Under the pieces are notes generated by a model, which was not told where the DNA came from, ran no database searches, and was given only the letters and a program-made list of their open reading frames with translations. A stretch of DNA of 64,000 nt from Hyphomonadaceae bacterium (GTDB taxonomy: Bacteria; Pseudomonadota; Alphaproteobacteria; Caulobacterales; Maricaulaceae): positions 1 to 64,000 of the forward strand of contig JABDMW010000038.1 of the NCBI GenBank assembly GCA_013001295.1. The letters run 5' to 3'. Of the stretch, positions 116-18,450 are shown in pieces. Each line of letters starts with the position of its first letter. Positions within the stretch are counted from its first letter, which is position 1. The position numbers and the translations under genes were made by a program.

Positions 116-150
116 GATTTTAGTCAATAATGTAAAAAGTGTCTAATAAA
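116..150. promoter_or_regulatory. Island operator, site A
   Basis: Inverted repeat with arms GATTTTAGTC (116-125) and GTCTAATAAA (141-150), separated by exactly 15 nt. It fits the consensus TTTATTARAC-N15-GTYTAATAAA derived here from seven sites in the left 18 kb. The right arm is perfect and the left matches 6 of 10. It lies 24 bp before the TTG start of the flavin monooxygenase, where a repressor could block the promoter. The binding protein is unknown. Confidence 0.6.
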
Positions 151-174
151 TAATATGCGCGGGGATGACGGCTT

Positions 175-1506
175 TTGGATAATAAATCGGATTTGCGAGG
201 GGAAAGAGCGCTGGTAGCAGGTGCCGGAATAGCGGGGCTCGCCGCGGCGGCAGCTTTATCACCATATTTTCGCGAGGTAATCGTTTTTGAAAAGGATGCA
301 CTCGCTGATGAGCCGCAAGTCCGTATGGGGGCCGTGCAGGGCGGACATATTCATACCATGTTACGCGGTGGCGAGGCGGGGCTGGAAGTATTACTGCCCG
401 GTATTCGCCAACAATTTCTCGACAATGGCGCGGTTGAGCTCGATATGGGCGGCGATTATCGGGGGCATGACGGCGGCGAATGGCGCGAGCAAGCTTTTCT
501 GGACATGCCGATTTTGATGATGAGCCGCCCGGGGTATGAGCAGGTAATTCGAAATCGCGTCACTGCATTGAGTAATGTTGAGATTAGATCTGGCTGCCGC
601 GTGAGCGAAATCTTATATCAAAATGGTGCAGCCATTTCTGTTCGATTTTTAAATGGTGAAGACGAAGCCGTGGAAACTGGCGCTCTTATTGTAGATGCGC
701 GCGGGCGGGGCAGCCTGTTACCGGTCGAACTTGAAAAGGCTGGATTTGCAAAAGTACCTGAGACAACTCTTGGCATAGTCATGACTTATGTGTCCGGAAG
801 GTTTAAACAAGGACCGGATTGCGAAAACCCAAATTTGGCGATGTTGGTCCGGCCAACCGCCCCCGAACCCCGCTATGGGATTCTCTGTCCCATTGAAGGC
901 GGTGACTGGATGGTGACCCTGGGCGGGCGGGCTGATACGGTTCCACCGACCGACTATGAAGGATTTTGTGACTATGCGCGCCAATTGGCAGTGCCTGATT
1001 TTTACAATGTGTTCAAAGACTGCGAATTGGTTGGACCTTTACGCAGATATAAGAAGCCTACAGCCGATTGGCGGCACTATGACCGCATGGAAAACTTTCC
1101 AGCGCGGCTGATCCCGCTCGGCGATACGATTACGTCGATTAATCCGACATTTGGCCAGGGCATGACGTTGGCCGTCTTGCATGCGCTTGCTTTAAAGGCT
1201 GCACTGGACGCTTTTGATATTGATGAGCCTGCCTTTGCAAACGTTTATTTCGAAGGGGCAATGAAAGTCAGCGGGGCTGCCTGGCAAATGGCCGGCGCCA
1301 GTGACCTGGAATACGATTTTGTCACCGGCGAGCGCCCACAGGGATTTGAACAAATGCAGCAGTTTTCCAAAGGACTAAAGCTGTTGGCCAATAACGATAA
1401 GGACGTGCTTCGGACATTGATGGAAGTATTCCATATGGAACGCCCGGCTGCGGATTTGCGTTCGCCGGAATTAGCGGCGCGGGTTATGCAGGCACTTGGC
1501 AGCTAG
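175..1506 (+). CDS. FAD-dependent monooxygenase/oxidoreductase
   Basis: This is a 443-residue single-component flavoprotein. A Rossmann FAD motif GAGIAGLAAAAAL lies near residues 17-29, and the second FAD motif of the hydroxylase family, GDTITSINPTFGQGMTLA, lies near residues 318-335. Such enzymes hydroxylate or epoxidise aromatic or isoprenoid substrates with NAD(P)H and O2. The substrate here is not recognisable. It starts at TTG, because the upstream ATG at 165 hits a stop after five codons. The stop codon shares the palindrome CTAG with the convergent gene at 1503. Operator site A sits just upstream, tying the gene to the oxygenase genes to its right. It could also be a reductase of the geranylgeranyl-reductase type. 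Confidence 0.75.
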   Translation: MDNKSDLRGERALVAGAGIAGLAAAAALSPYFREVIVFEKDALADEPQVRMGAVQGGHIHTMLRGGEAGLEVLLPGIRQQFLDNGAVELDMGGDYRGHDGGEWREQAFLDMPILMMSRPGYEQVIRNRVTALSNVEIRSGCRVSEILYQNGAAISVRFLNGEDEAVETGALIVDARGRGSLLPVELEKAGFAKVPETTLGIVMTYVSGRFKQGPDCENPNLAMLVRPTAPEPRYGILCPIEGGDWMVTLGGRADTVPPTDYEGFCDYARQLAVPDFYNVFKDCELVGPLRRYKKPTADWRHYDRMENFPARLIPLGDTITSINPTFGQGMTLAVLHALALKAALDAFDIDEPAFANVYFEGAMKVSGAAWQMAGASDLEYDFVTGERPQGFEQMQQFSKGLKLLANNDKDVLRTLMEVFHMERPAADLRSPELAARVMQALGS

Positions 1507-2567
1507 TTGTCCGGGCGAGTTCCTATGCCGAGCGGTGTCGCACAGCCTTGTTCGAAATAGGCTGTTGTGTCGTCGAAAATAATTCGGTCGCCATCAGATG
1601 AAGTGAACGAACCACTACACCGACCAAGGGCCCCATGGTGTGATGTGAAACCATCCCGCTGGTGAAAACCGAACATGCAGCGCGACCAGGTCTGAACATC
1701 CAGTTCAAGCATGCCCTCGGCACTATTCATCCGTATCTTCCAGGCGGTGGCGTGAGTTTTTAGCGTCAATGGATCCGTCCAATGCGCGAGCTCTTCGATC
1801 ATATTTTCGGGCTCTGTCATGTCTACGACTCGACCATCCAAGAATACACGCGCTGCAAAGCCGCCACCATTGCGTTGAGCGTAACAGAATACGCTGGCCT
1901 GTTCGGTGAAACACCAACCCCAAATATAACTCGATACGGCACCAAGGAGTGCCATCACGTCTTTCCCCGCACCAAGGCATGAACGTTCGCGCACGGCCCA
2001 GCCTTGGGTGATCTCATAGGTTTTGCCGTTATGGGTAAAACTACCTTCGGCGCGGCCCAATTGTTCATTCCCGCCAATGCCGGTTTCCGGCAAGTTTTCC
2101 CAAAGACCGTGATAGGGCATGGATTTCCCGGTTCCGGTAATGCGTATATTAATATCGACACCCATATGCTCGCCTTTGAGTTCCCAAAAGGGAGGGCGGC
2201 AGATGATCTTCCGATTACCAACGGCCCATACTACCTCATCGTCGTTATGAGTGACTTTTAGATCAGTGTAGACATTGGCCGGATCCATGCGGTTACCGAC
2301 AAATGAATTGTCGCGCATCACGCGGTCTCCGGGCAGGCTTGCCAACATATTGGTTTGCAAAAGACAGCCGTCTTTTATTCCCCAGACGTCGCCGCCGACA
2401 CGGTAAATTGTACCGACGACCAATACGTCCATATCTCCGGCCCGGCCAAATATGCCGATGCCGATATGGTCCTGGAAATGCTCTTTGAGCTGTTCCGGTG
2501 GTAGCTCTTGCACATGGCTGAATTCATCTTTTGCCTTAACGTCCGTATCCGGTTTAAATTTTGCCAT
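1503..2567 (-). CDS. Conserved hypothetical protein, possibly CrtC/AttH-like beta-barrel
   Basis: 354 residues, no signal peptide or membrane segment. I do not recognise the family with certainty. The Trp/Gly-rich pattern (for example WGWCFTEQASVFCYAQ near residue 220) and the alternating beta-strand look recall the two-lipocalin CrtC/AttH superfamily and the DUF7064/7065-type proteins encoded in oxygenase clusters. That placement is a guess. It is the third gene of an operon led by the two oxygenase subunits, 17 nt after the Rieske-less subunit, so a role with the oxygenase product (hydratase, or substrate handling) is plausible. Its stop codon overlaps that of the convergent flavin monooxygenase by four bases. 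Confidence 0.6.
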   Translation of the reverse strand: MAKFKPDTDVKAKDEFSHVQELPPEQLKEHFQDHIGIGIFGRAGDMDVLVVGTIYRVGGDVWGIKDGCLLQTNMLASLPGDRVMRDNSFVGNRMDPANVYTDLKVTHNDDEVVWAVGNRKIICRPPFWELKGEHMGVDINIRITGTGKSMPYHGLWENLPETGIGGNEQLGRAEGSFTHNGKTYEITQGWAVRERSCLGAGKDVMALLGAVSSYIWGWCFTEQASVFCYAQRNGGGFAARVFLDGRVVDMTEPENMIEELAHWTDPLTLKTHATAWKIRMNSAEGMLELDVQTWSRCMFGFHQRDGFTSHHGALGRCSGSFTSSDGDRIIFDDTTAYFEQGCATPLGIGTRPDN

Positions 2568-2584
2568 GCTTGAGCCTTTAGCTT

Positions 2585-3607
2585 TCAGTCGATTGATTTT
2601 TCCATGCCCAGGATTTCGGTAATATCGGCCCCCGTATCGGCGTCGGAACCGTAACTGTAATCACCCTTGCTTTGGCGCTCATGCAAAGCCTGCATCAAGA
2701 AACGGTATCTGTTGCCGGGCGCATCAAACCGTGAATGCATGTCGCGTACAGGGCTTGGCTCCAGATAGCGCGGATTTTGCGGGCGCATAACATAATTGTC
2801 CTGTGGGCCGACCTTATAGGCCAGCTTTGGCATGATCCGGCGAAATATCAGAGGGGCATCGGTCAGATTGAATATCTGGTCAACGCGCGAACGGTGGCTG
2901 CCATTTGGCACAAAGGGTTGAACATTTGGAATATCGAAGCCGGGCCTAAACCGGGGATAGGAGATGCAAAACCCGCTACGCAAATGAACGTGAAGCGTAG
3001 AGCGAAATTCCTGATGTGTCGCGCGAACACCGCCGAGCCATTTCATAACGGGAGCTACCGGTTTGCCGACGACCATCCGGACGCGGGTAAGTGTTTCGGA
3101 CGTATAGTCGAAGGTAATTTCATCGGATTCGGACTCGCCTTCACCGCCGATGACTTCGCCGTGCAAGAAATCCGCATGGGTAAGATCAAGCAGATTTTCG
3201 ACAGACAGAGCTGAACAGGCATCAAAGCGGATCGTCGTGCGCATATATTTCGGAATATCACCGTTTTTGGGGAGGAATGGAATATGCGGCAGCAAGGCCA
3301 TATCCGCATTGCCGGGATTGCCATACCAGGCCCAGATATATCCATATTGCTCACAGACAGGATAGTAATACGATCCGCCTGTAAAAGCCGTCGCAGATGG
3401 TTTATTCGCCGCGGTGAACGCGTGAGGGTGGATTTCGGCAGCGTTGGCGGTTCCATTGTCCCGCCATAAATAATAGGGCTGCGAATGCACCATGCGCCGG
3501 ACGGGATTAGCGGACACATCGGTCGCATGAGCAACAGGAAACCAGGTATCGCGCAGGTCGTAATTAGTCGGGATCCAGTCCTGTTGTTTTTTTGCTACTT
3601 TAGCCAT
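2585..3607 (-). CDS. Rieske-type oxygenase catalytic subunit lacking the Rieske cluster ligands
   Basis: 340 residues of the VanA/KshA-like aromatic-ring/terpenoid oxygenase fold. The mononuclear iron motif is intact as N-L-L-D-L-T-H-A-D-F-L-H, with D141, H144 and H149 the expected Asp-x2-His-x4-His set. The N-terminal half keeps the fold signposts (TWFPVAHATD, then YYPVCEQYGYIWAWYGNP), but the stretch between them (residues 40-80) has no CxH or CxxH pair, so no [2Fe-2S] centre can bind there. The preceding gene has the Rieske ligands. The two are linked by a one-base TAATG overlap, which suggests coupled translation and a hetero-oligomer. A Rieske-less oxygenase supplied by a Rieske partner is known from the NdmC/NdmD caffeine demethylase. 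The substrate is unknown. Confidence 0.8.
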   Translation of the reverse strand: MAKVAKKQQDWIPTNYDLRDTWFPVAHATDVSANPVRRMVHSQPYYLWRDNGTANAAEIHPHAFTAANKPSATAFTGGSYYYPVCEQYGYIWAWYGNPGNADMALLPHIPFLPKNGDIPKYMRTTIRFDACSALSVENLLDLTHADFLHGEVIGGEGESESDEITFDYTSETLTRVRMVVGKPVAPVMKWLGGVRATHQEFRSTLHVHLRSGFCISYPRFRPGFDIPNVQPFVPNGSHRSRVDQIFNLTDAPLIFRRIMPKLAYKVGPQDNYVMRPQNPRYLEPSPVRDMHSRFDAPGNRYRFLMQALHERQSKGDYSYGSDADTGADITEILGMEKSID

Positions 3608-4512
3608 TATACGGCCTCCTGAAACTGACTTGACGGCCCGACGAGAAGATTGGCAATGGCCTCACCGTCCAAATGGGAAAAGATATCGATCGGAGCTTTC
3701 GTGCGACTAATTTTGCCTGCGTCTTTATGATTGAAATTCACATTTCCCCGCCAGACAATATTGGTCGTGCTGCGCGTGCCGGGGAAAATGCTCATATAAA
3801 TCTGCGCGACTATTTGTTCCTTATCATCGAATAATTGGTGGATTATGGTTCCGTCTTCAAACGAGGAGATTGTGCGCAGGATAAACGGGTAATCAGTTGC
3901 CCATTTACTGGGCGGTTTGCCGCGTCGTATCCATCCTGCATTGCGCTCGACTTGGATGATTCCATCTCGCGTGACGGGATCGCCTAAGAAGAAATCAGTG
4001 AAGCCTATATTATGAATTCCGATCAATGTCTCCGGCCCATCCAGCATGGCAAGCCGATAGGCGCTGGTTGCAAGCGGAACAATGACATTCCCGTATAGCG
4101 GTAAGTCCTCATTCGCCGCGAAGACCGGCTTATCACCATCCTTGCTAGGTGGGTTTTGACCTGACCACAAAAACACAAATCCGTTGTCTTCATGAACTGA
4201 ATAGGCGTCAACCTTGTAGCGGCTCGGTACTTTTTCTTCATCTGACAGATTTGGAATTTGCGTACAGGCCCCGCTGGAACCGTCGAAAGTCCAGCCATGA
4301 TAAGCACACCGCAATTCGCCCTCAATGACTTTACCTAGTGATAGCGGTACGCGGCGATGCGGACAACGATCTTTCAAGGCGCGTACTTTTCCGATACCGT
4401 CTCGAAACAGTGCGACTTCTTTGGCTTCATAGCAGACTCGGATAGGCACTTCAGAACCGATGCTTTCACTAAGCGCAATTGGTTGCCATATACCTTTGGA
4501 AGCTGTCTTCAT
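3607..4512 (-). CDS. Rieske [2Fe-2S] oxygenase-like subunit with degenerate catalytic iron site
   Basis: 301 residues. The Rieske motif is complete: C50-P-H52 and C69-A-Y-H72 (RCPHRRVPLSLG then LRCAYHGWTFDG). In the catalytic half, where D-x2-H-x4-H is expected, the sequence reads ETLIGIHNIGFTDFF. Only one His (H167) fits and the first Asp and second His are not in place, so the mononuclear iron is probably not bound in the normal way. At 301 residues it is also shorter than the usual 330-360. I infer that it is the electron-donating partner of the subunit encoded by the overlapping gene at 2585-3607. No ferredoxin or reductase is encoded nearby. Operator site B lies just upstream of the ATG. 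Confidence 0.8.
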   Translation of the reverse strand: MKTASKGIWQPIALSESIGSEVPIRVCYEAKEVALFRDGIGKVRALKDRCPHRRVPLSLGKVIEGELRCAYHGWTFDGSSGACTQIPNLSDEEKVPSRYKVDAYSVHEDNGFVFLWSGQNPPSKDGDKPVFAANEDLPLYGNVIVPLATSAYRLAMLDGPETLIGIHNIGFTDFFLGDPVTRDGIIQVERNAGWIRRGKPPSKWATDYPFILRTISSFEDGTIIHQLFDDKEQIVAQIYMSIFPGTRSTTNIVWRGNVNFNHKDAGKISRTKAPIDIFSHLDGEAIANLLVGPSSQFQEAV

Positions 4513-4541
4513 TTTATCCCGTTAATTTGCGAGGTAGATTT

Positions 4542-4576
4542 TTAATTATACATTTAATGCAAATGTGTCTAATAAA
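4542..4576. promoter_or_regulatory. Island operator, site B
   Basis: Arms TTAATTATAC (4542-4551) and GTCTAATAAA (4567-4576), 15 nt apart. It lies in the 130-bp divergent promoter region between the Rieske operon (leftward) and the VOC-SDR-MFS operon (rightward), so one site could control both. The right arm matches the consensus in all ten positions and the left in eight. Confidence 0.65.
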
Positions 4577-4642
4577 TATTTGTGCGTTAGGCGACAAAGA
4601 AAAAAGTGGTAGATTTTTTCAGCGTAAACAGGGGACTTGATA

Positions 4643-5044
4643 ATGCAGGTCAAATCACTCGATCATGTCAACATCATCACAGATGATCTGCATGGCACGG
4701 CGCAATTCTATGCCGATCTCCTGGAATTGGATGTTAGAGACGGACCGCCGCCCATGAAACATGATCATGCCCAATGGTTGTTCGATGTACGCGGTCGCGC
4801 CGTGATACACGTCAATGCAGTCGGTGCTTATCAGGTTTTCCCAAAAGATACGACGCCGGGCGAGACCACAGGTGCCTTGCATCATGTCGCATTTGATTGC
4901 GATGGCTATGACGATTTGCTTGAACGTGTCAACGCATTGGAGCTGGAATATAAAACCAATGCGGTCAGCTCGATCGGTCTGCGACAAGTGTTTGTCTACG
5001 ATCCGAACGGGGTTTTGCTCGAACTTAATTTTCGAAATACTTAA
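4643..5044 (+). CDS. VOC-family (glyoxalase/dioxygenase fold) protein
   Basis: 133 residues with the beta-alpha-beta-beta-beta vicinal-oxygen-chelate pattern: SLDHVNIITDDLHGTAQFYADLL at the N-terminus, ALHHVAFDCDGYDDLLERV in the middle, and RQVFVYDPNGVLLELNF at the C-terminus. Metal-ligand positions H9, H80 and E129 look present (read by eye). Such small proteins act as lyases, isomerases or dioxygenases on catabolic intermediates. The substrate is unknown. I chose the ATG at 4643, behind a GGGGAC ribosome site, over a TTG six bases upstream. It is the first gene of a VOC-SDR-MFS operon divergent from the Rieske genes. Confidence 0.75.
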   Translation: MQVKSLDHVNIITDDLHGTAQFYADLLELDVRDGPPPMKHDHAQWLFDVRGRAVIHVNAVGAYQVFPKDTTPGETTGALHHVAFDCDGYDDLLERVNALELEYKTNAVSSIGLRQVFVYDPNGVLLELNFRNT

Positions 5045-5055
5045 GGACGGATGCA

Positions 5056-5835
5056 ATGGATCTTGGCCTAAGGGGAAAGAATGCGATCGTTATGGCGTCG
5101 AGCAAAGGTCTGGGCTTCGCTTGCGCCAATGCCCTGGCACGCGAGGGTGCAAATGTCGCAATCAACGGACGTGGGGAAGAGGCCGTCAAAGCCGCTGCTG
5201 CCTCGATTAAAAAAAACCATGATGTCAACGTGATCGAAATTGTCGCCGACCTTACAACCGATAACGGTCGCGAGGCGTTGCTGGCGGCATTCTCTGAGCC
5301 CGATATTTTGATCCTGAATGGCGGCGGGCCGCCGCCGACGCCATTTGGCAAAACCGATGAGGCAGCATGGGAAAAAACACTGCACGACACACTGACGTCT
5401 CCGCTCTTGATGGTGCAAGGTGTGCTTGACGGAATGCGCGCCCGCAAGTTCGGTCGTATTGTCGCGATTACCTCTGCCATGGTCAAAACCCCGCATCCGG
5501 TGATGGTACTGTCGCACGCGCCGCGCACGGGACTGACGAGCGTGCTTAAATCGATCTCCCGCGAGACAGTCAAAGACAATGTGACGATAAACCAACTTCT
5601 GCCCGAACGATTCGAGACGGATCGACATCGATTTCTGGCCCAGGCCACAGCCGATGCAAAAGGCATCAGTTTGGAAGAAGTAAATGCAGCCATAAAAACC
5701 GGACTTGCAGCAGGACGACTCGGCCAACCGGAAGAGTTTGGCGATGCGTGTGCGTATTTATGTGCGGCCCAATCCGGGTATATTTGCGGCCAGAACCTGA
5801 TGCTCGATGGCGGCAATTATCGGGGGCAGGCCTAG
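5056..5835 (+). CDS. SDR-family oxidoreductase lacking the canonical YxxxK
   Basis: 259 residues. The N-terminal Rossmann region reads VMASSKGLGFACANALAREGA, an SDR TGxxxGxG variant, and NGGGPPP replaces the usual NNAG. Where classical SDRs have Tyr-x3-Lys, this protein reads VLSHAPRTGL. The Tyr and Lys are therefore replaced by Leu and Arg, although the preceding Ser (ITSAM) is present. A divergent SDR branch of this type exists, often annotated as 3-oxoacyl-ACP reductase-like. Whether it reduces ketones by the usual proton relay is doubtful. It begins 11 nt after the VOC gene behind AAGGACGG, and the MFS gene starts 10 nt after its stop. Confidence 0.8.
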   Translation: MDLGLRGKNAIVMASSKGLGFACANALAREGANVAINGRGEEAVKAAAASIKKNHDVNVIEIVADLTTDNGREALLAAFSEPDILILNGGGPPPTPFGKTDEAAWEKTLHDTLTSPLLMVQGVLDGMRARKFGRIVAITSAMVKTPHPVMVLSHAPRTGLTSVLKSISRETVKDNVTINQLLPERFETDRHRFLAQATADAKGISLEEVNAAIKTGLAAGRLGQPEEFGDACAYLCAAQSGYICGQNLMLDGGNYRGQA

Positions 5836-5845
5836 TGACAAATCC

Positions 5846-7066
5846 ATGAGTACTTTTCGCGGCTGGCACGTCTTGGGCGGCAGTTTCCTGAACGCCATGA
5901 TGGTTGCCGGGGCCAGCGTTTATTCCTTTGGGTTATTTGTCAAACCGGTTGAAGACACCTTTGGCCTCAGCCGCGAGCAAGCCTATCTTGGCATCGAGGT
6001 ATTCTTCCTGAGTACGGCCTTTTGGGCAATTGCGACAGGTATATTGCTCGAACGTTTTTCGGCTCGCGCCATTTCTATCGCCGGTGGTCTTAGTTTCGGG
6101 CTCGGTTTCGCGCTTATTGGAACGGCTGTCCACCCTGCCATCATGCTGCTCGCCATATTCGGACCGATCGGATTTGCCTTTACCGCCGCTGGGTCATTTA
6201 CCGCGAACGTGTTGGTGACGCGCTGGTTTTCGCGCATGCGCGGCCGGGCGCTCGGGATTGCCGCTGTTTCCACGTCTGCGGGCGGATTTTTGATTGTGCC
6301 GTTGTTCGCCGCTCTGATCGAGGCAACAGATTGGCGGCAGGCTTGCCTGATCGTCGCAATTATTGTCCCTGTCATTATTCTTGTCGCGAGCCTTTTAACA
6401 ATTATTCCTAAACCTGAAGACGTTGGACAGATTCCGGATGGGGAAAAAATTGAAACCGTCGAACGCGACCCTGAACCCTTACAAATAGAGCCGAGAAAAA
6501 ACCTCGCTCGTGATCCCAATACATGGTTGATCGGGGCGGCAATCGGATTGTTGCTCGGTAGCGACCAGGCCATTTTGACGTCTTTGGTACCTTACGGTAT
6601 AGGACGTGGGTTTACGCTGCAGGAATCCTCACTCTTGGTAACGGCCGTCGCAGGATCGGCGATCCTGGGTAAATTATTTATCGGCTGGCTGTCCGAACGT
6701 GTCGACAAACGCTTATTGTTCCTGCTGGTGGCCGGCCTGAATATTACCTTTCTGACGACATTACTGCTCTCACCCGGCTATTTCGGATTATTGCTCGTGG
6801 CAGCCTGCGTGGGCCTCGCTGTGGGCGGCGCTGTCCCGATCTGGACAACATTGACGGCCCATTGCTTCGGACGCGACAATTTTGGACGCGCCCTCGGAGC
6901 CATGAATGCCATTACCGTGCCGATCATGCTGTTTTCGTTGTGGATGGCGGCTCGAACCCATGACATGACGGGCGATTATCAATTGGCTTTTAAACTGTTC
7001 ATCCCGCAGGTGCTTGTTGCCATTGTTATTATCGCTTTCGTCCGGATGAAAAAGGCAGAGATTTAA
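5846..7066 (+). CDS. MFS transporter (OFA/monocarboxylate-type)
   Basis: 406 residues with about 12 hydrophobic segments in two blocks, split by a charged loop near residues 185-215 (KPEDVGQIPDGEKIETVERD). The first cytoplasmic loop region and the pattern resemble the oxalate-formate/monocarboxylate branch of the major facilitator superfamily. As the last gene of the VOC-SDR-MFS operon it probably imports the acid degraded by this island. I used the ATG at 5846 rather than one inside the SDR gene at 5807, because the downstream start gives a normal cytoplasmic N-terminus (MSTFRGWHVLGG). Specificity cannot be read from the sequence. Confidence 0.85.
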   Translation: MSTFRGWHVLGGSFLNAMMVAGASVYSFGLFVKPVEDTFGLSREQAYLGIEVFFLSTAFWAIATGILLERFSARAISIAGGLSFGLGFALIGTAVHPAIMLLAIFGPIGFAFTAAGSFTANVLVTRWFSRMRGRALGIAAVSTSAGGFLIVPLFAALIEATDWRQACLIVAIIVPVIILVASLLTIIPKPEDVGQIPDGEKIETVERDPEPLQIEPRKNLARDPNTWLIGAAIGLLLGSDQAILTSLVPYGIGRGFTLQESSLLVTAVAGSAILGKLFIGWLSERVDKRLLFLLVAGLNITFLTTLLLSPGYFGLLLVAACVGLAVGGAVPIWTTLTAHCFGRDNFGRALGAMNAITVPIMLFSLWMAARTHDMTGDYQLAFKLFIPQVLVAIVIIAFVRMKKAEI

Positions 7067-7086
7067 AATACTGCCACCGCAAAACG

Positions 7087-7614
7087 CTAACTAATATTGT
7101 TCACATAGGTCATGCGTCCACCGGCTAACATCATCGCACAATACATACTGATCTCAACAATTTGTGCGTCATTATAATGAGCCCGAAGAGCCTCAAATTC
7201 AGCCAGTCCGATATCTTGAAAGTCAGATGCGAATAAATGGGCATAAGTCATGGCGGCGTGCTCGGCGGGTGAGAATCTGGAGTCGTCAGTCGCAAGACAG
7301 GCGATATCGTCTTCGGTGACGCTATCTGTTTTTCGCGCGATCTGGCAGGTGTTGCAATTGGTTGCAGCCGCGATTTTGAGCCGCATCAATTCACGCGTGC
7401 GGTCGTCCAGTACACTGTCTTGATGAAAGGCAGTGAGCAAGGATAACCATCGCGTGGCAAGTTCAGGCCGATGGGCCCAGACTTGGACAGGTAGGGGCGT
7501 GCTGAGCACGCCGTTGGTGCGAGCATTGGTAATATCTGCTCGCAGGCTTGTGGAAAGCTCGTCCAGCGGAACCGGTTTGATCATTGGGTTGGTTTCCTGA
7601 ATTGGGGTGGACAT
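7087..7614 (-). CDS. Carboxymuconolactone decarboxylase/AhpD-family protein
   Basis: 175 residues, all-alpha, with the family CxxC motif (NCNTCQIARK) preceded by a run typical of the CMD/AhpD helix (ELMRLKIAAATNC). Members are either true decarboxylases of the protocatechuate pathway or thiol-dependent peroxidase partners. The CxxC here fits the redox-active branch, though the family His position is not clear. The ATG at 7614 has an AGGAG site five bases upstream and is preferred over an in-frame start at 7695, which lies inside the divergent promoter. It is divergent from the VOC gene at 7712, with a weak operator copy between them. Confidence 0.75.
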   Translation of the reverse strand: MSTPIQETNPMIKPVPLDELSTSLRADITNARTNGVLSTPLPVQVWAHRPELATRWLSLLTAFHQDSVLDDRTRELMRLKIAAATNCNTCQIARKTDSVTEDDIACLATDDSRFSPAEHAAMTYAHLFASDFQDIGLAEFEALRAHYNDAQIVEISMYCAMMLAGGRMTYVNNIS

Positions 7615-7637
7615 ATAGGCTCCTGGACGTATTGCTA

Positions 7638-7672
7638 TTTTCTTGACACTTTTGGCATAATTGTTCAGTTTA
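7638..7672. promoter_or_regulatory. Island operator, degenerate site
   Basis: Arms TTTTCTTGAC (7638-7647) and GTTCAGTTTA (7663-7672) with the same 15-nt spacer as the other sites. The match is only 7/10 and 6/10, so it is a weak copy supported mainly by its position in the divergent promoter between the CMD and VOC genes. An overlapping imperfect dyad, GCATAA...TTTATGC, is also present. Confidence 0.3.
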
Positions 7673-7711
7673 TGCAAAACACGATTTCGACGCATTTACC
7701 GGAGCCCGCCC

Positions 7712-8680: not shown

Positions 8681-8683
8681 AAA

Positions 8684-9670: not shown

Positions 9671-9690
9671 GGCGTCATCTCCAGTCAGAT

Positions 9691-9725
9691 TTTATTAAAC
9701 GATAATGACATTAATGTTTAAAATA
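9691..9725. promoter_or_regulatory. Island operator, FAH/DUF35 site
   Basis: Arms TTTATTAAAC (9691-9700) and GTTTAAAATA (9716-9725) around a 15-nt spacer. The left arm fits the consensus at all ten positions (counting R as A) and the right at eight. It lies in the divergent promoter between the FAH gene (leftward from 9670) and the DUF35-thiolase operon (rightward from 9792). Confidence 0.65.
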
Positions 9726-9791
9726 TACAATGACGCGTTTGTATTCTTGTGTGTATAATAGTGGCATCAAATCTAAACCGTAGCGGAAATC

Positions 9792-10205
9792 ATGTCTCAA
9801 ATTCTCCCCGAAATCACTGACGAAAACGCCGCGTTCTGGCAGGGGGGCGAGGACGGAAAACTGATGATCACCCAGTGCGACGATTGCGCGTTTTACATCC
9901 ATCCACCTTCGGGGTTTTGCGTCAAATGCCGATCGAAAAATGTGTCACCCAAACCGGTGTCCGGTAAAGGTAAAGTCGCCAGTTTTACCATAAATCATCA
10001 ACAATGGCTGCCGGACTTGAAAACGCCCTATACGGTCGCGATCGTCGAACTTGTTGAGCAAAAGGGTTTGCGCTTCGTTACGAATATTACGGGCTGCGAT
10101 CCGGAAACCGTCCATATTGATATGCCTGTTGAAGTAAATTTTCAAAACCACGAAGATGTTTGGTTGCCGCTTTTTTCACCGGTCACAGGTCGTACAGCTT
10201 CGTGA
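9792..10205 (+). CDS. DUF35 Zn-ribbon/OB-fold acyl-CoA-associated protein
   Basis: 137 residues. An N-terminal helix is followed by a rubredoxin-like zinc ribbon, with CDDC and CVKC at about residues 29-32 and 44-47, and then an OB-fold (GKGKVASFTINHQQW, DMPVEVNFQ). DUF35 proteins dock on thiolase-like partners and hold the CoA moiety, as ChsH2 does with Ltp2 in steroid side-chain degradation. The gene overlaps the thiolase gene by four bases (GTGA), as expected for subunits of one enzyme. Confidence 0.88.
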   Translation: MSQILPEITDENAAFWQGGEDGKLMITQCDDCAFYIHPPSGFCVKCRSKNVSPKPVSGKGKVASFTINHQQWLPDLKTPYTVAIVELVEQKGLRFVTNITGCDPETVHIDMPVEVNFQNHEDVWLPLFSPVTGRTAS

Positions 10206-11389: not shown

Positions 11390-12222
11390 TCGGATACGCG
11401 GTTACGCAAGACGCCAATATTCTCGACCTCGGCTTCGATGAGGTCACCGCGCTGAATATATTTACCCGTACTGTCCCCAACCCCGTCGGGTGATCCGGTG
11501 AAGAGAACATCGCCGGCGCGGAAGCTGGATATTTGCTGGACATATTTTATCAGCTCCCCCACACCCCATGTCATATCCCCTGACGTCGCATCCTGACGAA
11601 CATCGCCATTGACTTTCAAGGTCAGTTTCAGAGTCGGTGATCCGTTTGGGAACTCGTCTTTGGTTACAATCCAGGGGCCGAGGCCGGTGGTGCGGTCCTG
11701 GCTTTTGGCGGCAAATAAATCCATGCCGATTTTGGGAGATCCGTTACGTTGTAGATCCCTGGCGCTGACATCGTTTCCAGCCGTATAACCCAGGACGCAA
11801 TCATAAGGATTGTCGAGGTCAACATTGTCACTGCCGATCACGACAACCAGCTCAACTTCATGGTCGAGTTTCTCCGTGAGAGGGGGATACCGAATGTCGT
11901 CATTTGCGCCAATCAGGGCGCCATAGGCCTTGAGAAATGCAACCGGTTTTGAGACCGGGTCGACGCCAAATTCCTCCAAATGTTTTGAATAATTAGCCCC
12001 TGCGACAACAACACGGTTCACCGGCTCAACAGGAGGGAGAAACCGGACGGCATTAACGCTTACAAAATCGTCGGATAATTCCAAAGCGGACTTGCCTTCG
12101 CCCTTGGTCAAGCGGGGAGCCCATTCGTGAAAACTGCCTTTGATTTCGCGTACTGTACGTTGATCATCCGAGCCTAATGCCCAAAAGATCCGTCCGTCTT
12201 TTTCCAGTCTTGCCAGTCGCAT
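11386..12222 (-). CDS. Fumarylacetoacetate hydrolase (FAH)-family protein, copy 2
   Basis: 278 residues, a complete FAH-domain protein with DHEVELVVVIGSDN, LGYTAGNDVSARDLQ and GPWIVTKDEF. The catalytic domain starts near residue 70, giving the short bacterial form (2-hydroxyhepta-2,4-diene-1,7-dioate isomerase/acylpyruvase-like). It follows the ferredoxin oxidoreductase gene by only 12 nt and is likely co-transcribed with it. A GGGGGACGAC ribosome site precedes the ATG. Its stop codon shares the TTAA tetranucleotide with the convergent thiolase gene. It is clearly a distinct family member from the copy at 8684. Confidence 0.87.
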   Translation of the reverse strand: MRLARLEKDGRIFWALGSDDQRTVREIKGSFHEWAPRLTKGEGKSALELSDDFVSVNAVRFLPPVEPVNRVVVAGANYSKHLEEFGVDPVSKPVAFLKAYGALIGANDDIRYPPLTEKLDHEVELVVVIGSDNVDLDNPYDCVLGYTAGNDVSARDLQRNGSPKIGMDLFAAKSQDRTTGLGPWIVTKDEFPNGSPTLKLTLKVNGDVRQDATSGDMTWGVGELIKYVQQISSFRAGDVLFTGSPDGVGDSTGKYIQRGDLIEAEVENIGVLRNRVSD

Positions 12223-12234
12223 GTCGTCCCCCGA

Positions 12235-15200
12235 TTATTCCGCTGCTGCAGCTGAATGCGGCGCCAATTCTATTGCGCCAATTTTTTGCCGCAGCCGTGC
12301 GAGTTGGCGCTCATAGCCTTTTACCGATTGTGATTTGATATGACCATAGCCTTTGACCAGGTGCGGCGCTTTAAATAATTCCAGCACGAGGTCTTTGTTT
12401 TTAAGCGTGAGCTGTTCCGCGCCCCATTTTACGAGGTCTTCAAATTCGTCGCGCAGGGCGCGCTCCATTATTCTTTCCGCCGTCATGCCGAAAATATCAA
12501 GCCGGCTACCGCGTAAAAATTTAAGTTTCGCCAACGGGCCGAACGATTTCAAAAACCAAGCCGGGAACTTGGTCTTTACGGGATAACCGTTGGCATTTTT
12601 GCGGGCAAATATCGGCGGTGCCAAATGCACGCGTATTTTCATATTTCCTTCAAATTGGGCTTTTATGTCTTTCATAAACTCAGGGTCCGAATACAAACGG
12701 GCAACTTCGTATTCGTCTTTATACGCCATCAATTTATACAGCGATTGAGCTGCGGCACGACTGATATCGCCTGCTTGACCGGTAACTTTGTTCTCTCGTT
12801 TCATAATATGTGCGAGGACTACTTTGTATCGATCAGCATAGGCTTTGTTTTGATACAAAACCAAATCGGCATACCGGCGCTCTATCAATGCCGGGACAGA
12901 AATTTGACCATCCGGCTTTTCGAGAAGCGTTGGGTTCTCGCCGGCAGCCATACGACGTCCAAGCTCAAATGCGGTCTTATTGGCGTCGACCTTGGCCCCG
13001 ATGATTTCAATGGCCGAAAAAATCGAATTTCGGCTCAACGGGAGATGACCTTTTTGCCACGCCATACCGAGCAAAACGAGATTGTTATAAATTGTGTCGC
13101 CTAATTCCTTCAACACGGCATCCGTCGTATCCGCTTCAAGATATGATTTGGATGATCTGCGCAGATCATCGCTCATGCCTTTTTTGTCATAGGAAAAGTC
13201 GCGAATGCCGACAACTTCGGCGCTTGCGGAAATTTTGGTGTTAGCAATAACCGCAGTTTTGTCGGAACCGGCATGCGGACGAATAATCGGGCCATGCGCG
13301 ACGATCATATCATTGACCAATATGAGATCTGCCGCCCCGCGCCCGATCCGGGCGTTGACGATTTTGGCCGCGTTTTTGGACATCTTAAAATGCGTAAATA
13401 CCGCGCCGCCCTTTTGTGCCATGCCAAGGGCGTCAACGGCGTTGACAGACAGGCCCTCCAGATGGGCCGCCGTGCTGAGCATGGCGCTTAGCGATGTCAC
13501 GCCCTGACCACCAACACCAGCGAGCACCAGTTCATAGACGTCGTCTTTTTTTAAACTTTCAATTACGGGATCGGTGATGACGGGATGAGCATTGCGCGCT
13601 GGCTCAGGTCGCTTGAGTTTAGCACCTCGCAAGGTAACAAAACTCGGGCAAAATCCTTCGATGCAGGATTTGTCTTTGTTGCAAGCGAGTTGATCAATCC
13701 GCCGTTTCTGCCCGTATTCGGTCTCAATTGTTTCGACCGCGATGCAATTGGATTTTACCGAGCAGTCGGCGCAACCCTCGCACACGCGCTCATTGATAAA
13801 AATACGCTCTTGTGGATCGGGTACAAGCCCCCGTTTGCGTTTGCGCCGCAATTCAGTCGCGCAGGTCTGAACGTAAATAATTGCGGTCACTCCTTTTATA
13901 AACCGCAATTCCTTTTGCACCGTTTCCATATCAATTCGGTCATAAAACTGTGTGCCGGACGGGTAGCGCCCCAGAGACTGCATGGCGGCGACATCGTCTC
14001 CGACAAGCACCGTTTTCCCCACACCCTCTGCCTTCAATTGATTTGCAATCATAACCGGCGTCAGCGGGCCATCGACGATTTGCCCGCCGGTCATCGCAAC
14101 CGCGTCATTGAACAGGATTTTATAGGTGACATTGACACTAGCCGCGACGGCTTGGCGGATCGCCAGCAGGCCAGAATGATGATAGGTGCCGTCGCCCAGA
14201 TTGACGAATATATGCTCTTCATTGGTAAAGGGTGCCTGTCCAATCCAGGAAGCACCTTCGCCGCCCATTTGCGTAAAGGTTGTTGTGTTGCGGGGCATGT
14301 ATTGCGCAAGGTAGTGGCAGCCAATACCGGCGGTAGCGCGGCTGCCATCAGGGACTTTAGTCGAAGAATTGTGCGGACATCCGGGGCAGAAATACGGCGT
14401 CCGTTTGTGGCGTTCGCCAACCGGATTGTCTTGCGAAGCCAAGCGTTTGATCATTTTTTTCATCGTCGGGGTTTTCTGGTTTGTCGTCAAAAACCCATAG
14501 ATAATTTTCGTGACCAGATCGCCGTTCAGCTCTCCAAAATCCGGAACGAGTGTTTTCCCGTCGCGATCTGTTTTACCAAAAATCTTTGGTCGGTGAGCAC
14601 CGGGTAAATCACATAGATATTCACGCAGTTGGGTTTCAACCAAGGACCGGCGCTCTTCGATCACAAGAACTTCAGAAACATTCTGCATCGCCGCCGTCGC
14701 CCGCCGTTTCTCCAACGGCCAGACGAGACCGGGTTTATACAGACGAATGCCAAGCTTATTGGCTTTTTCTTTATCAATGCCGAGATTTTGCAAGGCCTGC
14801 ATGACATCGCGGTAAGCCTTACCCTGCGTGACAATGCACAGGGACGCCTTTTTTGTATCAAAGACAAATTTGTCAAAATCATTGTGGTAGGCGAAATCTT
14901 CGACGGCCGGCCGACGTTTTTGGCGCAGGCGCGCCTCCTGGTCAATTGGCGTATCATTGAGGCGAATGTGTAAATCATCAAACTTTTCTTCCGGAGTCAC
15001 GCATTCAAAACCTTCCGGATCGATTGTTATATTGACCGTTGAATCCATGAGCTCGGCGACGACGGTCATAGCCGACCACAGCCCGCTGAAGCGGGACATA
15101 TCAAAGGCTTTGACACCGAAATAAAGGACTTCCTCGACCGTTGAGGGCGCCAGGACGGGGATTTCCGCATCAACAAAATTATACTCGCTTTGGCCCGGAA

Positions 15201-15672
15201 TGGAGGACGATTTGCAACCGTGATCATCGCCGGCTATGGCGAGTACACCGCCGCGCGCCGACGTGCCGGCGTAGTTTGCATGTTTCAGGGCGTCTCCGGA
15301 TCGATCTACGCCCGGTGTCTTGCCGTACCAGATTCCGAATACACCTTCATATTTGGCACCTTGGTACAAGCCCACTTGCTGTGTTCCCCAGACGGCGGTG
15401 GCCGCCAGGTCTTCATTGATCCCCGGCTGGAATACAATGTCGTGTTTATCAAGGCGCGCCTTTTCCTTTTCGAGGCGCATGTCCAGACCCCCCAAGGGTG
15501 ATCCCCGATACCCTGAAATGAATCCTGCCGTGTTCCAGCCCTTGGCGGTGTCGATCCGTTTGCGTTCCAGTCCAATACGGACGAGCGCGTCAATCCCGGA
15601 CAGCAGGATTTTTCCCGTAGGAGCATCGAATCGGGCAGTGCGCAGATCAGGTTTTGTTGGTGTATCCAGCAT
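12235..15672 (-). CDS. Fused indolepyruvate-type ferredoxin oxidoreductase
   Basis: 1145 residues, a single-chain 2-oxoacid:ferredoxin oxidoreductase that oxidatively decarboxylates aryl- or alkyl-pyruvates to acyl-CoA. In order, it has the pyrimidine-binding domain (about 20-410); the TPP-diphosphate site GDGTYHHSG near residue 494 with the following N-D-A-V-A-M-T-G-G-Q; a ferredoxin-like cysteine cluster CEGCADCSVKSNC near residue 630; and the gamma-type domain starting AGVGGQGVTSL near residue 717. The length is normal for alpha- and betaproteobacterial fused forms. Pairing with a divergent Lrp regulator is a common arrangement for aromatic amino-acid catabolism. Here the pair lies inside a degradation island and shares its operator. 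The start follows GAGAGGAACA. Confidence 0.9.
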   Translation of the reverse strand: MLDTPTKPDLRTARFDAPTGKILLSGIDALVRIGLERKRIDTAKGWNTAGFISGYRGSPLGGLDMRLEKEKARLDKHDIVFQPGINEDLAATAVWGTQQVGLYQGAKYEGVFGIWYGKTPGVDRSGDALKHANYAGTSARGGVLAIAGDDHGCKSSSIPGQSEYNFVDAEIPVLAPSTVEEVLYFGVKAFDMSRFSGLWSAMTVVAELMDSTVNITIDPEGFECVTPEEKFDDLHIRLNDTPIDQEARLRQKRRPAVEDFAYHNDFDKFVFDTKKASLCIVTQGKAYRDVMQALQNLGIDKEKANKLGIRLYKPGLVWPLEKRRATAAMQNVSEVLVIEERRSLVETQLREYLCDLPGAHRPKIFGKTDRDGKTLVPDFGELNGDLVTKIIYGFLTTNQKTPTMKKMIKRLASQDNPVGERHKRTPYFCPGCPHNSSTKVPDGSRATAGIGCHYLAQYMPRNTTTFTQMGGEGASWIGQAPFTNEEHIFVNLGDGTYHHSGLLAIRQAVAASVNVTYKILFNDAVAMTGGQIVDGPLTPVMIANQLKAEGVGKTVLVGDDVAAMQSLGRYPSGTQFYDRIDMETVQKELRFIKGVTAIIYVQTCATELRRKRKRGLVPDPQERIFINERVCEGCADCSVKSNCIAVETIETEYGQKRRIDQLACNKDKSCIEGFCPSFVTLRGAKLKRPEPARNAHPVITDPVIESLKKDDVYELVLAGVGGQGVTSLSAMLSTAAHLEGLSVNAVDALGMAQKGGAVFTHFKMSKNAAKIVNARIGRGAADLILVNDMIVAHGPIIRPHAGSDKTAVIANTKISASAEVVGIRDFSYDKKGMSDDLRRSSKSYLEADTTDAVLKELGDTIYNNLVLLGMAWQKGHLPLSRNSIFSAIEIIGAKVDANKTAFELGRRMAAGENPTLLEKPDGQISVPALIERRYADLVLYQNKAYADRYKVVLAHIMKRENKVTGQAGDISRAAAQSLYKLMAYKDEYEVARLYSDPEFMKDIKAQFEGNMKIRVHLAPPIFARKNANGYPVKTKFPAWFLKSFGPLAKLKFLRGSRLDIFGMTAERIMERALRDEFEDLVKWGAEQLTLKNKDLVLELFKAPHLVKGYGHIKSQSVKGYERQLARLRQKIGAIELAPHSAAAAE

Positions 15673-15798
15673 TGTTCCTCTCAGAGAGGGGAAAAATAAG
15701 CGACAGTGCCCGCATTTTCTGTCTTAAAGTTCGCACCAAACCGGTGCTTTGTGCATTAATCATCGCATTTATCGATGGTAATATGCATAAAACAATGC

Positions 15799-15833
15799 TT
15801 TATTAGACAGTATGGACAAAAGTGACCTGAAAA
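15799..15833. promoter_or_regulatory. Island operator, lrp site
   Basis: The left arm TTTATTAGAC (15799-15808) is a perfect consensus arm. The right arm at the fixed 15-nt spacing, GACCTGAAAA (15824-15833), is poor (5/10). The site straddles the lrp start codon at 15812, so binding would directly affect lrp and perhaps also the divergent ferredoxin oxidoreductase gene. A separate dyad, GCACC-AAACC-GGTGC near 15733-15747, may be an Lrp operator. Confidence 0.45.
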
Positions 15834-16276
15834 TACTGGATGAGCTTCAACGCGACGCGGGACTTTCTACAGCCGAAATCGCTGAACGTGTCGGGCTTTC
15901 CCAATCACAATGCTGGCGCCGATTGGCAAGCCTCAAAGAAACAGGCGTGATCCGCGACCAGGTCACCCGAATGAATCGCCGTAAACTCGGTTTTGACGCC
16001 ATGGTTTTTGCACACGTAAAGGTCACGGCACACGGGCGCGCCAATCTCGATGAATTCACAACAGCGGTAATGAAATACCCGGAAATCACCGAGTGCCATG
16101 CTATTATGGGGCCGTTTGATTTCTTGCTGCGGATCGTCACAAAGGACATGGATGCCTATGAAAAATTTGTCTTTGGCAAACTCTCGCGCGTGCCGGGTGT
16201 CCAAGAAATCAACTCAACCATGGCCCTGTCGGAAATAAAATCGACATCAGCATTGCCGATTGAAACGCTGATGTGA
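15812..16276 (+). CDS. Lrp/AsnC-family transcriptional regulator
   Basis: 154 residues. An N-terminal winged helix (residues 3-55, DLKILDELQRDAGLSTAEIA then LSQSQCWRRLASLKETGVI) is followed by the RAM ligand-binding domain (about 65-145). It is divergent from the indolepyruvate-type oxidoreductase gene, which Lrp-type neighbours usually control in response to an aromatic amino acid or its keto acid. The ATG has no clear ribosome site. Instead the operator arm TTTATTAGAC ends four bases before it, so translation may be weak or the message may have a very short leader. It is the only recognisable DNA-binding regulator in the left 18 kb. Confidence 0.92.
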   Translation: MDKSDLKILDELQRDAGLSTAEIAERVGLSQSQCWRRLASLKETGVIRDQVTRMNRRKLGFDAMVFAHVKVTAHGRANLDEFTTAVMKYPEITECHAIMGPFDFLLRIVTKDMDAYEKFVFGKLSRVPGVQEINSTMALSEIKSTSALPIETLM

Positions 16277-16317
16277 GATTGGCAGAGATTAGACTAGCCA
16301 AATCTCGCCAAATGGGT

Positions 16318-16352
16318 ATTATTAAACATATATTCAAAATATGTCTAAAAAA
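16318..16352. promoter_or_regulatory. Island operator, P450 site
   Basis: Arms ATTATTAAAC (16318-16327) and GTCTAAAAAA (16343-16352), each 9/10, with a 15-nt spacer. The inner bases extend the dyad (ACATAT...ATATGT). It ends just before the GAGGTGAT ribosome site of the P450 gene, so a bound protein would block transcription of that gene. Confidence 0.7.
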
Positions 16353-16360
16353 GAGGTGAT

Positions 16361-17641
16361 ATGTCAAAATCCGTGAATGCTGAACTCAAAGAGGCCTTTC
16401 AGGGGGTCAGTGATAATTTTCGCGGCACAGTTGATGACCCTTATCCGCTTTACAAAAAAATGCGGGAAACTTCGCCTGTCTATACCGGAAATTTTATGGC
16501 CGAGTTGGGGGTGCCCAATATAGCGGGGTCGAGCAAGGATCGCCCGACATTTACACTGTTTAAACACGCCGATGTCATGCGCGTGATGCGAGATGCCAAG
16601 ACCTTTACCAGCGGTTTTATCGCCGAAGGTCTGGGCGCCTTTTTTGACGGTCTCATTCTAACGGGGATGGACGGCGAAGCGCATAAACGGGCAAGGGCGC
16701 TTCTGGCACCCGTGTTTACGCCCTCCACAATTCGTCAATGGCAGGAAGAAAAAATCACGCCGGTGCTCGAAGATGAATTCGTCAAGCCGCTAGCCGCGTC
16801 GGGAAAATCGGCCGAACTGATAGACGATATGGGCATGTTTTTTCCGATACGCGTGATTTACGCTCTAATCGGATTTCCCGAGGATAACCCCGATGAAATC
16901 AAGCGGTTCGCGGGGTGGGCTATGGATATCTTAGTCGGACCTCAAGAAGATCCGGAAAAAGCTAAAATCGCCGGGATGAAAGCCATGGCGGCGGCGCAGG
17001 CGCTCTACGATGCGATGTTGCCTATCGTGCAGAAGCGGCGTGAAGACGGTGCAAAGGGCACCGATTTGATTTCACGTCTCATTCGACTCGAAGAGGACGG
17101 AACCAAACTTGATGATCATGAGATTACAACATTTGTGCGTTCGCTCTTGCCGGCGGCCGCCGAGACAACAACCCGAACCTTTGGTTCAGCCATGGCCTTG
17201 TTGCTGACCAACCGGGAAAATCTGGAAAAAGTCAAAGCGGATCGCAGCCTGATTTTAAAAGTAATAGACGAAGCCGTCCGTCTGGAACCGACAGCAACGT
17301 TTAAAATACGCCAGGCCGCGGAAGATATAGAGATAGGCGGTGTGGCCATTCCGAAGGACGCCATGGTGTCATGTGTTGTCTCTTCGGCCAATCGCGACGA
17401 GGATGTGTTTGACAATGCAGACCAATTCAATCCATTCCGCAAACAGAAGCCGTCCTTCGGCTTCGGATTTGGTACCCATATGTGTATCGGTCTCTTTGTC
17501 GCCAAAGCGGAAATTGAAAGTGCGATGAATGCGCTGTTCGATCATATGCCAAATATCCGATTGGATCCTGCCTACCCCGCACCGGTGATGACAGGATTGC
17601 AATTGCGCGGGCCCCGGGCCGTACATGTTATCTGGGACTGA
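16361..17641 (+). CDS. Cytochrome P450
   Basis: 426 residues, a soluble class I bacterial P450. The K-helix ExxR is EAVR near residue 307. The haem-binding loop is FGFGTHMCIG (FGxGxHxCxG) near residues 366-375 with the axial Cys. The I-helix region reads LLPAAAETTTRTFG, carrying the usual Thr for O2 activation. It hydroxylates an unknown substrate with electrons from ferredoxin. No ferredoxin or ferredoxin reductase is encoded in the island, so electrons must come from elsewhere. GAGGTGAT precedes the ATG, an operator copy lies immediately upstream, and the stop abuts the convergent enoyl-CoA hydratase stop without a gap. Confidence 0.93.
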   Translation: MSKSVNAELKEAFQGVSDNFRGTVDDPYPLYKKMRETSPVYTGNFMAELGVPNIAGSSKDRPTFTLFKHADVMRVMRDAKTFTSGFIAEGLGAFFDGLILTGMDGEAHKRARALLAPVFTPSTIRQWQEEKITPVLEDEFVKPLAASGKSAELIDDMGMFFPIRVIYALIGFPEDNPDEIKRFAGWAMDILVGPQEDPEKAKIAGMKAMAAAQALYDAMLPIVQKRREDGAKGTDLISRLIRLEEDGTKLDDHEITTFVRSLLPAAAETTTRTFGSAMALLLTNRENLEKVKADRSLILKVIDEAVRLEPTATFKIRQAAEDIEIGGVAIPKDAMVSCVVSSANRDEDVFDNADQFNPFRKQKPSFGFGFGTHMCIGLFVAKAEIESAMNALFDHMPNIRLDPAYPAPVMTGLQLRGPRAVHVIWD

Positions 17642-18427
17642 TTATTTTCCCTTCCAGCGCGGTTTTCTTTTTTCAGCGAAAGCCAGGGGACCTTCCTTCG
17701 CGTCGTCAGAAGCAAACATCTCCACCATCGAAGAATAGCTTTTTTGGGCTTCAACGGCATGCTTTAGATCGGCTTCATTCAGGCCTTTTTGAACGGTTTC
17801 TTTGGAGGCGCGAATTGACATGGGGCTCGCTTCACAAATTATAAGGGCCAGTTTCAAAGCTTTCGTAAGCACTTTGTCGTTTTTCACGACATAATTTACG
17901 AAGCCCAGTTTTTTGCCTTCTGTTGCGCTTACCCGCCGGGAGGTCAGTATCATATCCATTGCCCGCTTCTCTCCGATGAGGCGAGGTAAACGCAATAGTC
18001 CGCCTTCATAGGCGGCTAATCCGACTTTAGGTTCGGGAAGGCCAAAGCTTGCTGATTTCGACGCGACAATAAGATCGCAGGCCAGAGCAATTTCAAATCC
18101 ACCACCCAGGGCAAGCCCGTTAACGGCGGCAATCACCGGTTTGTTCAGCGTCCATCGTCTCGTCAGTCCTGCGGCACCTGTATCCGGAAGTTCTGTCGGG
18201 TCATCAGCACCCGGTTTGGTTTTTAAATCCTTGCCGACGCAAAAGGCTCGGTCGCCCGAACCCGTCAGGATGGCCACCCAGACCTCCGGGTCTTGTTCAA
18301 AATCATCAAAGATGGCGGCAAGCTCGGCATGCGCCGCAGGGGTCAGGGCATTAAGTACCTTCGGACGATTAATAGTGATCAGGGATATCCGACCCCTGGT
18401 CTCGACTTTGCAATATTTATTAGACAT
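17642..18427 (-). CDS. Enoyl-CoA hydratase/isomerase family protein
   Basis: 261 residues of the crotonase fold. The oxyanion-hole segments are WVAILTGSGDRAFCVGKDLK and NGLALGGGFEIALACD, and the acidic catalytic region is PEPKVGLAAYEGG near residues 130-142. Probable reaction: hydration or isomerisation of an acyl-CoA during beta-oxidation of the opened substrate. AAGG lies six bases before the ATG. Unusually, codons 1-4 (ATG TCT AAT AAA) are the operator arm GTCTAATAAA read on this strand, so the regulatory site and the coding start overlap. It forms the right edge of the catabolic island. Confidence 0.88.
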   Translation of the reverse strand: MSNKYCKVETRGRISLITINRPKVLNALTPAAHAELAAIFDDFEQDPEVWVAILTGSGDRAFCVGKDLKTKPGADDPTELPDTGAAGLTRRWTLNKPVIAAVNGLALGGGFEIALACDLIVASKSASFGLPEPKVGLAAYEGGLLRLPRLIGEKRAMDMILTSRRVSATEGKKLGFVNYVVKNDKVLTKALKLALIICEASPMSIRASKETVQKGLNEADLKHAVEAQKSYSSMVEMFASDDAKEGPLAFAEKRKPRWKGK

Positions 18428-18450
18428 ATATACCTTATGTGTTTAAAAAT
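18416..18450. promoter_or_regulatory. Island operator, enoyl-CoA hydratase site
   Basis: Arms TTTATTAGAC (18416-18425, perfect) and GTTTAAAAAT (18441-18450, 8/10) with the 15-nt spacer. The left arm lies inside codons 1-4 of the leftward enoyl-CoA hydratase gene and the spacer covers its ribosome site. Binding would block both transcript start and early elongation. Confidence 0.68.

Follow-up and report, generated by a model that had tools for sequence, protein, structure and literature searches.

Recurring long palindromes in a catabolic island of a Hyphomonadaceae bacterium as predicted operators of an island-encoded TetR-family repressor

The stretch of DNA analyzed here, referred to as the window, comprises 64,000 nucleotides (nt) at the start of contig C34 of a Hyphomonadaceae bacterium (genome G000), and its left part carries a run of catabolic genes together with seven palindromic sites that are the subject of this report (Table 1). 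The remainder of this gene island lies on a second contig of the same genome, C9, at positions 230-31700 (∼32 kb), which with the 18 kb in the window gives a total of roughly 50 kb. That C34 and C9 adjoin is supported by an uncultured Hyphomonadaceae, G082 (CAJXPX010000011.1), in which a single contig holds these genes with their order almost unchanged. Pfam domains identified across the island include P450s, Rieske and ring-hydroxylating oxygenases, a BphC-type dioxygenase, FAH-family proteins, thiolases, acyl-CoA dehydrogenases, a CoA ligase, a TonB-dependent receptor, and an MFS transporter. Six further sites are found on C9 (117, 1342, 1394, 12557, 20833, and 26662), the one at 117 being the counterpart of that at 116 in the window. 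The same divergent promoter region stands at both contig ends (window 1-267 and C9:1-278); the two versions differ at 18 positions and by a gap of 12 bases, and could represent two copies of a single joint or strain variants of it.

Table 1. Coordinates of the island genes, the seven operators, and the two regulator genes considered. Fractions are matches to the 20 arm bases of the consensus; C11 positions refer to G082.
Feature	Position	Strand	Remarks
Window part of the island genes (presumed regulon)	175-18427		Oxygenases, P450, FAH-family, thiolase, IorAB, SDR, MFS, and enoyl-CoA hydratase; Pfam; collinear with G082
Left window end	1-267		Near-copy, in reverse complement, of C9:1-278 (248 identical, 18 different, 12 gap columns); connects with the remainder of the island
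Operator 1	114-152 (core 116-150)		Before flavin monooxygenase (175, +) and divergent amidohydrolase running onto contig C9; 16/20
Relatives of operator 1	C9:117-151; C11:56088		Near-copy on C9; orthologous G082 site
Operator 2	4540-4578 (core 4542-4576)		Between divergent Rieske gene (3607-4512, -) and glyoxalase-SDR-MFS genes (from 4637, +); 18/20; whole-genome match
Operator 3 (weak)	7636-7674 (core 7638-7672)		Between CMD gene (-) and gene for 339-residue glyoxalase-fold protein (+); 13/20; matrix 28.4; orthologous site C11:50078
Operator 4	9689-9727 (core 9691-9725)		Between FAH1 (8684-9670, -) and OB-fold/thiolase genes (from 9792, +); 18/20; whole-genome match; orthologous site C11:48005
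Operator 5 (one weak arm)	15797-15835 (core 15799-15833)		Over Lrp start codon, offset to this start identical in G082 (C11:41900); centre 144 bp before IorAB gene on opposite strand; 15/20; matrix 23.4
Operator 6	16316-16354 (core 16318-16352)		Centre 26 bp before P450 start (16361, +); 18/20; whole-genome match; orthologous site C11:41381
Operator 7	18414-18452 (core 18416-18450)		Over start codon of enoyl-CoA hydratase (17642-18427, -); 18/20; whole-genome match; orthologous site C11:38687, likewise over start codon
Lrp/AsnC-family gene	15812-16276	+	Presumed target, not presumed binder; Pfam
TetR2	C9:9769-10458	-	Outside the window, ∼10 kb beyond its left end; presumed binder

The seven sites had been proposed in a sequence-only reading of the window, and all seven were located exactly where that reading had placed them. 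When its 20 defined arm bases were scored at the 15-base spacing over every position of the window, non-site positions reached at most 14 (10 positions), and a score of 13 occurred at 36 positions including 7638, so that by consensus alone operator 3 is at chance level. This site was nevertheless retained because an orthologous site exists in G082, with which it shares 17 of 20 arm bases; its overlap with a start codon holds only if the first possible starts are chosen. The exact arm GTCTAATAAA or its reverse complement, said to occur at four of the sites, does so (141, 4567, 15799, and 18416), and one more copy lies at 54039. Taking the window and G082 sites together, the core of the motif is ACA-N13-TGT within a 39-bp palindrome, roughly TATTTATTARACAYWWWTGNCAWWWRTGTYTAATAAATA, and 19 of 19 sites (one G082 site being incomplete) keep both the C of ACA and the G of TGT.

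The 35-39 bp palindrome recurs, with its spacing, in six further islands from alpha- and betaproteobacteria, some on chromosomal contigs and others on plasmids: those of G082, G013, G736, and G788, plasmid p1 of Caulobacter sp. FWC26 (80 kb, 66% G+C), and a plasmid of Massilia putida (95 kb, 65-69% G+C). G082 has 13 sites on one contig, with nearly the gene order of G000. At the 11 sites orthologous between these two genomes, 189 of 220 arm bases were identical, compared with 117 of 165 in the spacer and 368 of 770 in ungapped 35-base flanks. G736 and G788 were found later by way of the dioxygenase, which was searched for both class-wide (1 of 385, the own genome only) and order-wide (8 of 398).

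A matrix built from the 13 G082 sites was applied to the window and to the other islands. With a threshold of 20, the peaks in the window were exactly the seven sites; the next best position scored 16.1, and the maximum among 30 dinucleotide shuffles was 18.8. Since the search that yielded the G082 sites had itself used matrices from window sites, this matrix is not wholly independent of the window. It gave 9 peaks of at least 20 in G013 (60 kb of a 230-kb contig; shuffle maximum 19.9), scores of 27.0, 18.5, 18.4, and 14.8 in the Caulobacter plasmid (maximum of 30 shuffles 5.8), and 9 peaks of at least 15 in the Massilia plasmid, followed by 12.3, 11.7, 10.3, and 9.1 (shuffle maximum 3.4). G736 had 11 peaks between 17.6 and 32.0 (next 10.1), and G788 had four between 16.1 and 23.5.

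Because shuffles fail to mimic A/T-rich promoters, two other controls were added. In a gap sweep, pairs of single-arm matches were counted at each gap, and the native gap gave the most pairs in Massilia (7, with at most 3 at other gaps), Caulobacter (4 and at most 1), G736 (10 and at most 6), G788 (2 and at most 1), C9 (6 and at most 5), and G013 (11 and at most 9); within the window, it was the best pair score that peaked at the native gap (32, with at most 23 elsewhere). The second control consisted of two plasmid islands that share an amidohydrolase but have no clear TetR2, the regulator discussed below; their best scores were 4.8 and 8.1, and neither had a pair at the native gap.

The motif is also largely confined to the islands. 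Throughout the own genome (3.49 Mb, 59 contigs), where hits had been expected to concentrate at the island, a strict pattern with up to three mismatches matched four places, all on C34 and all among the seven sites (reversed-pattern control, one). A relaxed 31-base pattern with at most one mismatch matched 12 places, seven in the island and five on five other contigs. The same search placed 6 of 6 matches on the island contig in G736 (control 0), 1 of 1 in G788 (control 0), and 7 of 8 in G082 (control 2). With up to two mismatches, 7 of 8 matches on the Massilia plasmid fell within the island stretch (control 1), and the single match on the Caulobacter plasmid did so too (control 0). Novosphingobium and Croceicoccus, which carry related islands, each gave one match at this setting (controls 0 and 1, respectively), both outside the island stretch. 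In G013, further pattern matches lie on the same contig beyond the 60-kb stretch (C41:8724, 23098, 37478, and 41512), which suggests that its island is larger than the stretch analyzed.

Candidate regulators were compared over ten island stretches (40 to 115 kb; some islands may reach further), namely G000, the six long-site islands, and the islands of Novosphingobium, Croceicoccus, and G819. The contigs G724 (12 kb) and G738 (3.8 kb), which also came from the order-wide dioxygenase search but have no TetR2 homolog, were left out, and a second Croceicoccus record (NZ_CP060053.1) likewise stands outside the ten. TetR2, encoded on C9, is the sole regulator found in all ten islands. Homologs of Lrp are present in three (G000, G082, and G013), of a second TetR-family protein, TetR1, in four (G000, G082, Massilia, and G736), and of an IclR protein in four (Caulobacter, Massilia, G013, and G788). 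TetR2 contains a TetR_N helix-turn-helix domain (PF00440, E 1.9e-16, above the curated cut-off), and its best relatives in the PDB are TetR-family proteins; its C-terminal part matched no Pfam family. No close paralog of TetR2 was found in the own genome, the next matches being 29% over 116 and 36% over 59 residues.

A site precedes the TetR2 gene or its presumed operon in all ten islands, counting short candidate sites described below. In three (G013, Caulobacter, and G788) it does so directly, and in seven via an operon: SDR, P450, TetR2 in G000; SDR, a 310-bp gap, TetR2 in G082; SDR-TetR2 in Massilia; one gene, a 114-bp gap, TetR2 in G736; and a dioxygenase operon in Novosphingobium, Croceicoccus, and G819. 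We thus regard the sites as predicted operators of a single island-encoded TetR-family repressor, TetR2, a reading to which we assign a probability of roughly 0.8. As an alternative to Lrp, the sequence-only reading had pointed to a regulator encoded just left of the window, and this is the option we favor. Its broader proposal of one dimeric repressor for the whole island is supported as regards a single regulator, given that in the own genome the strict motif stays within the island, that in G082, G736, and G788 it falls mostly on the island contig, and that six other islands show the arms together with their spacing; the number of dimers per site is a separate matter, taken up below.

Other explanations of the sites deserve consideration. 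If they were chance A/T-rich promoter sequence, the A/T-rich arms and the weak consensus scores at 7638 and 15799 would be expected, but this is contradicted by the whole-genome counts, the shuffles, and the spacing in G+C-rich plasmids, on which grounds it was rejected, as well as by the excess of arm over flank identity at the orthologous sites; we give it practically no credence. The binder that the sequence-only reading named was the Lrp/AsnC protein, which would then control both the island and itself. Its gene does lie within the island with a site over its start codon, likewise in G082, and the G013 island has a distant Lrp (36-37%). However, since operator 5 overlaps this start codon, coding constraint may account for some of its conservation, and no Lrp homolog (E ≤ 1e-4) was found in 7 of the 10 island stretches, four of which have the long site. 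Moreover, 34 loci around other Lrp relatives had no such site, save for one isolated copy of the long palindrome (score 22.1) ∼5.2 kb after the Lrp match in L041, a locus from a Pandoraea metagenome-assembled genome. Because the operator is kept in islands lacking an Lrp homolog, Lrp was rejected as the binder, and we consider this role very unlikely for it. Among the loci L033-L066, proteins related to the island Lrp (45-65%) are common in Pandoraea and others that lack these sites, with IorAB as a neighbor in L064 only.

The sites might instead be bound by TetR1, by an IclR/DitR-like protein, or by an unseen regulator encoded elsewhere in the genome. TetR1 adjoins TetR2 in G000 and G082, known dit clusters are reported to have an IclR regulator, DitR (PMC12628601), and a regulator could be encoded beyond the stretches analyzed. 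Yet TetR1 and IclR are each present in only four of the ten islands, and in different sets of four, for which reason neither was accepted as a general controller; the G000 and G082 stretches held nothing that matched the IclR of Caulobacter or Massilia. The operator also moves with the islands between alpha- and betaproteobacteria, as expected of an island-borne regulator. On balance, we think control by any of these unlikely. The TetR1 gene itself (G000 C9:8960-9766) is kept in G082, and Massilia and G736 carry genes related to it; neither in G000 nor in G082 is it preceded by a site.

Several observations weigh against assigning the sites to TetR2, or against the selectivity of the motif. 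The window is A/T-rich, and its pair counts are unselective in the gap sweep, with 7 pairs at the native gap versus 9 at gap 15, 8 at gap 9, and 7 at gap 2. With two mismatches, the 31-base pattern showed only a modest excess over control in the own genome (79 vs 59) and in G013 (132 vs 105), and it was dropped as a discriminator at this setting because it is too loose in A/T-rich genomes. In G082 all four strict-pattern matches (up to three mismatches) were on the island contig, yet the control count was three. The link of a site to TetR2 through an operon is uncertain in G082 and G736 owing to the intergenic gaps given above, and in Massilia the site before SDR-TetR2 is weak (11.7), falling under a background-like 12.3. 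Finally, the 12-kb contig of G724 combines the dioxygenase with an ambiguous arm pair (gaps 5, 7, and 14) but carries no TetR2.

How TetR2 would act is suggested by the placement of the sites. Two of those in the window (15799 and 18416) cover start codons, an arrangement retained in G082, and all other sites of the window and C9 are centred no more than ∼120 bp upstream of a start; blocking therefore fits better than activation. We infer that, without an island substrate or intermediate, TetR2 would occupy the 35-39 bp palindromes at promoters and start codons, those of its own unit included, that bound TetR2 would block transcription of the island, and that a pathway compound acting as ligand would release it. 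The fit of TetR2 to so long a site is inferred likewise: the length of the site may reflect a single dimer whose basic N-terminal arms lie on the outer A/T tracts, or a pair of adjacent dimers. Of 78 half-sites that were selected by arm sequence alone in the islands other than G000 and G082, 18 had a central TG-N-CA, versus 0 to 9 at shifted places, which is compatible with two dimers.

The operator may exist in two lengths. No long site was found in the island stretches of Novosphingobium, Croceicoccus, and G819, whose TetR2 proteins form one clade (support 0.974) in a FastTree phylogeny of 10 TetR2 and three TetR1-type proteins. Upstream of the ring-hydroxylating dioxygenase gene of each, however, the same arms form the best pair with a spacer 8 bases shorter (gap 5), scoring 16.5, 20.6, and 13.8, respectively (next at gap 5: 5.2, 6.7, and 10.0). 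This short candidate site is clear in two islands and marginal in G819. Against it, the claim concerns one site per island, the G819 score scarcely differs from those at other gaps (13.2 and 13.1), and the Croceicoccus candidate has an alternative reading at gap 14 (18.5).

The recognition-helix motif SRGT(L/F/M)YRYF is common to all ten TetR2 proteins. Net charge over the stretch of up to 20 residues that immediately precedes helix 1 ranged from +2 to +6 for the seven proteins of long-site islands and from -1 to -3 for the three of short-site islands, a correlation over few lineages. The whole N-terminus of the G736 protein has a net charge of -2, and the basic arm is not peculiar to TetR2, as TetR1 proteins carry 0 to +2 over the same stretch. 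We tentatively suggest, at somewhat less than even odds, one TetR family with a constant recognition helix and two operator forms, a long one used many times per island and a short one used once. The switch between them may track the basic or acidic N-terminal arm, with two dimers versus one dimer per site.

Parallels to this arrangement exist among known regulators. SimR, a TetR-family repressor, is said to insert an N-terminal extension into the minor groove (work cited in PMC5812520), which resembles the basic arm before the helix-turn-helix in the seven long-site TetR2 proteins, except that the role of the arm here is a correlation only. QacR, also of the TetR family, reportedly binds as two dimers; the TetR2 sites are like those of QacR and DarR in being long or overlapping palindromes, but are longer. 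DarR is described as a dimer-of-dimers on a 20-bp operator (PMC10636190). For AtuR, which belongs to the acyclic terpene (atu) cluster, binding to two inverted repeats of 13 bp is reported (PMC3511530). As with AtuR, the TetR-type gene here lies inside the cluster presumed to be under its repression; in contrast, many sites are spread across the island, all of them 35-39 bp long and with a constant spacer of 15 bases. Within the open PubMed Central (PMC) literature, we found neither a description of this operator or of TetR regulation in these islands nor, for strain FWC26, an account of this island.

Gene content invites a further comparison. The dit clusters for degradation of abietane diterpenoids (resin acids) are described as containing ring-hydroxylating dioxygenase subunits, a cleavage dioxygenase, SDRs, a thiolase, an MFS transporter, and a CoA ligase (PMC12628601, PMC10710418). 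Judged by domains, the island holds genes of similar kinds, but the regulator described for dit clusters is the IclR protein DitR, whereas TetR2 is proposed here. Guessing from gene content, a terpenoid-type substrate class has about an even chance of being correct. Two adjacent genes at 2585-4512 of the window, one with a Rieske domain and the other with only the C-terminal domain of the VanA type, look like a split oxygenase, and the Massilia plasmid (L086:4659-6604) has a pair similar to them by name.

The circuit predicted here from sequence would place a catabolic island of ∼50 kb, recurring across alpha- and betaproteobacteria, under one regulator, and its motif could be used to find further pathway genes and to build a sensor. 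If the two operator forms are real, these islands would be an instance, found in nature, of operators of two lengths paired with a single TetR lineage.

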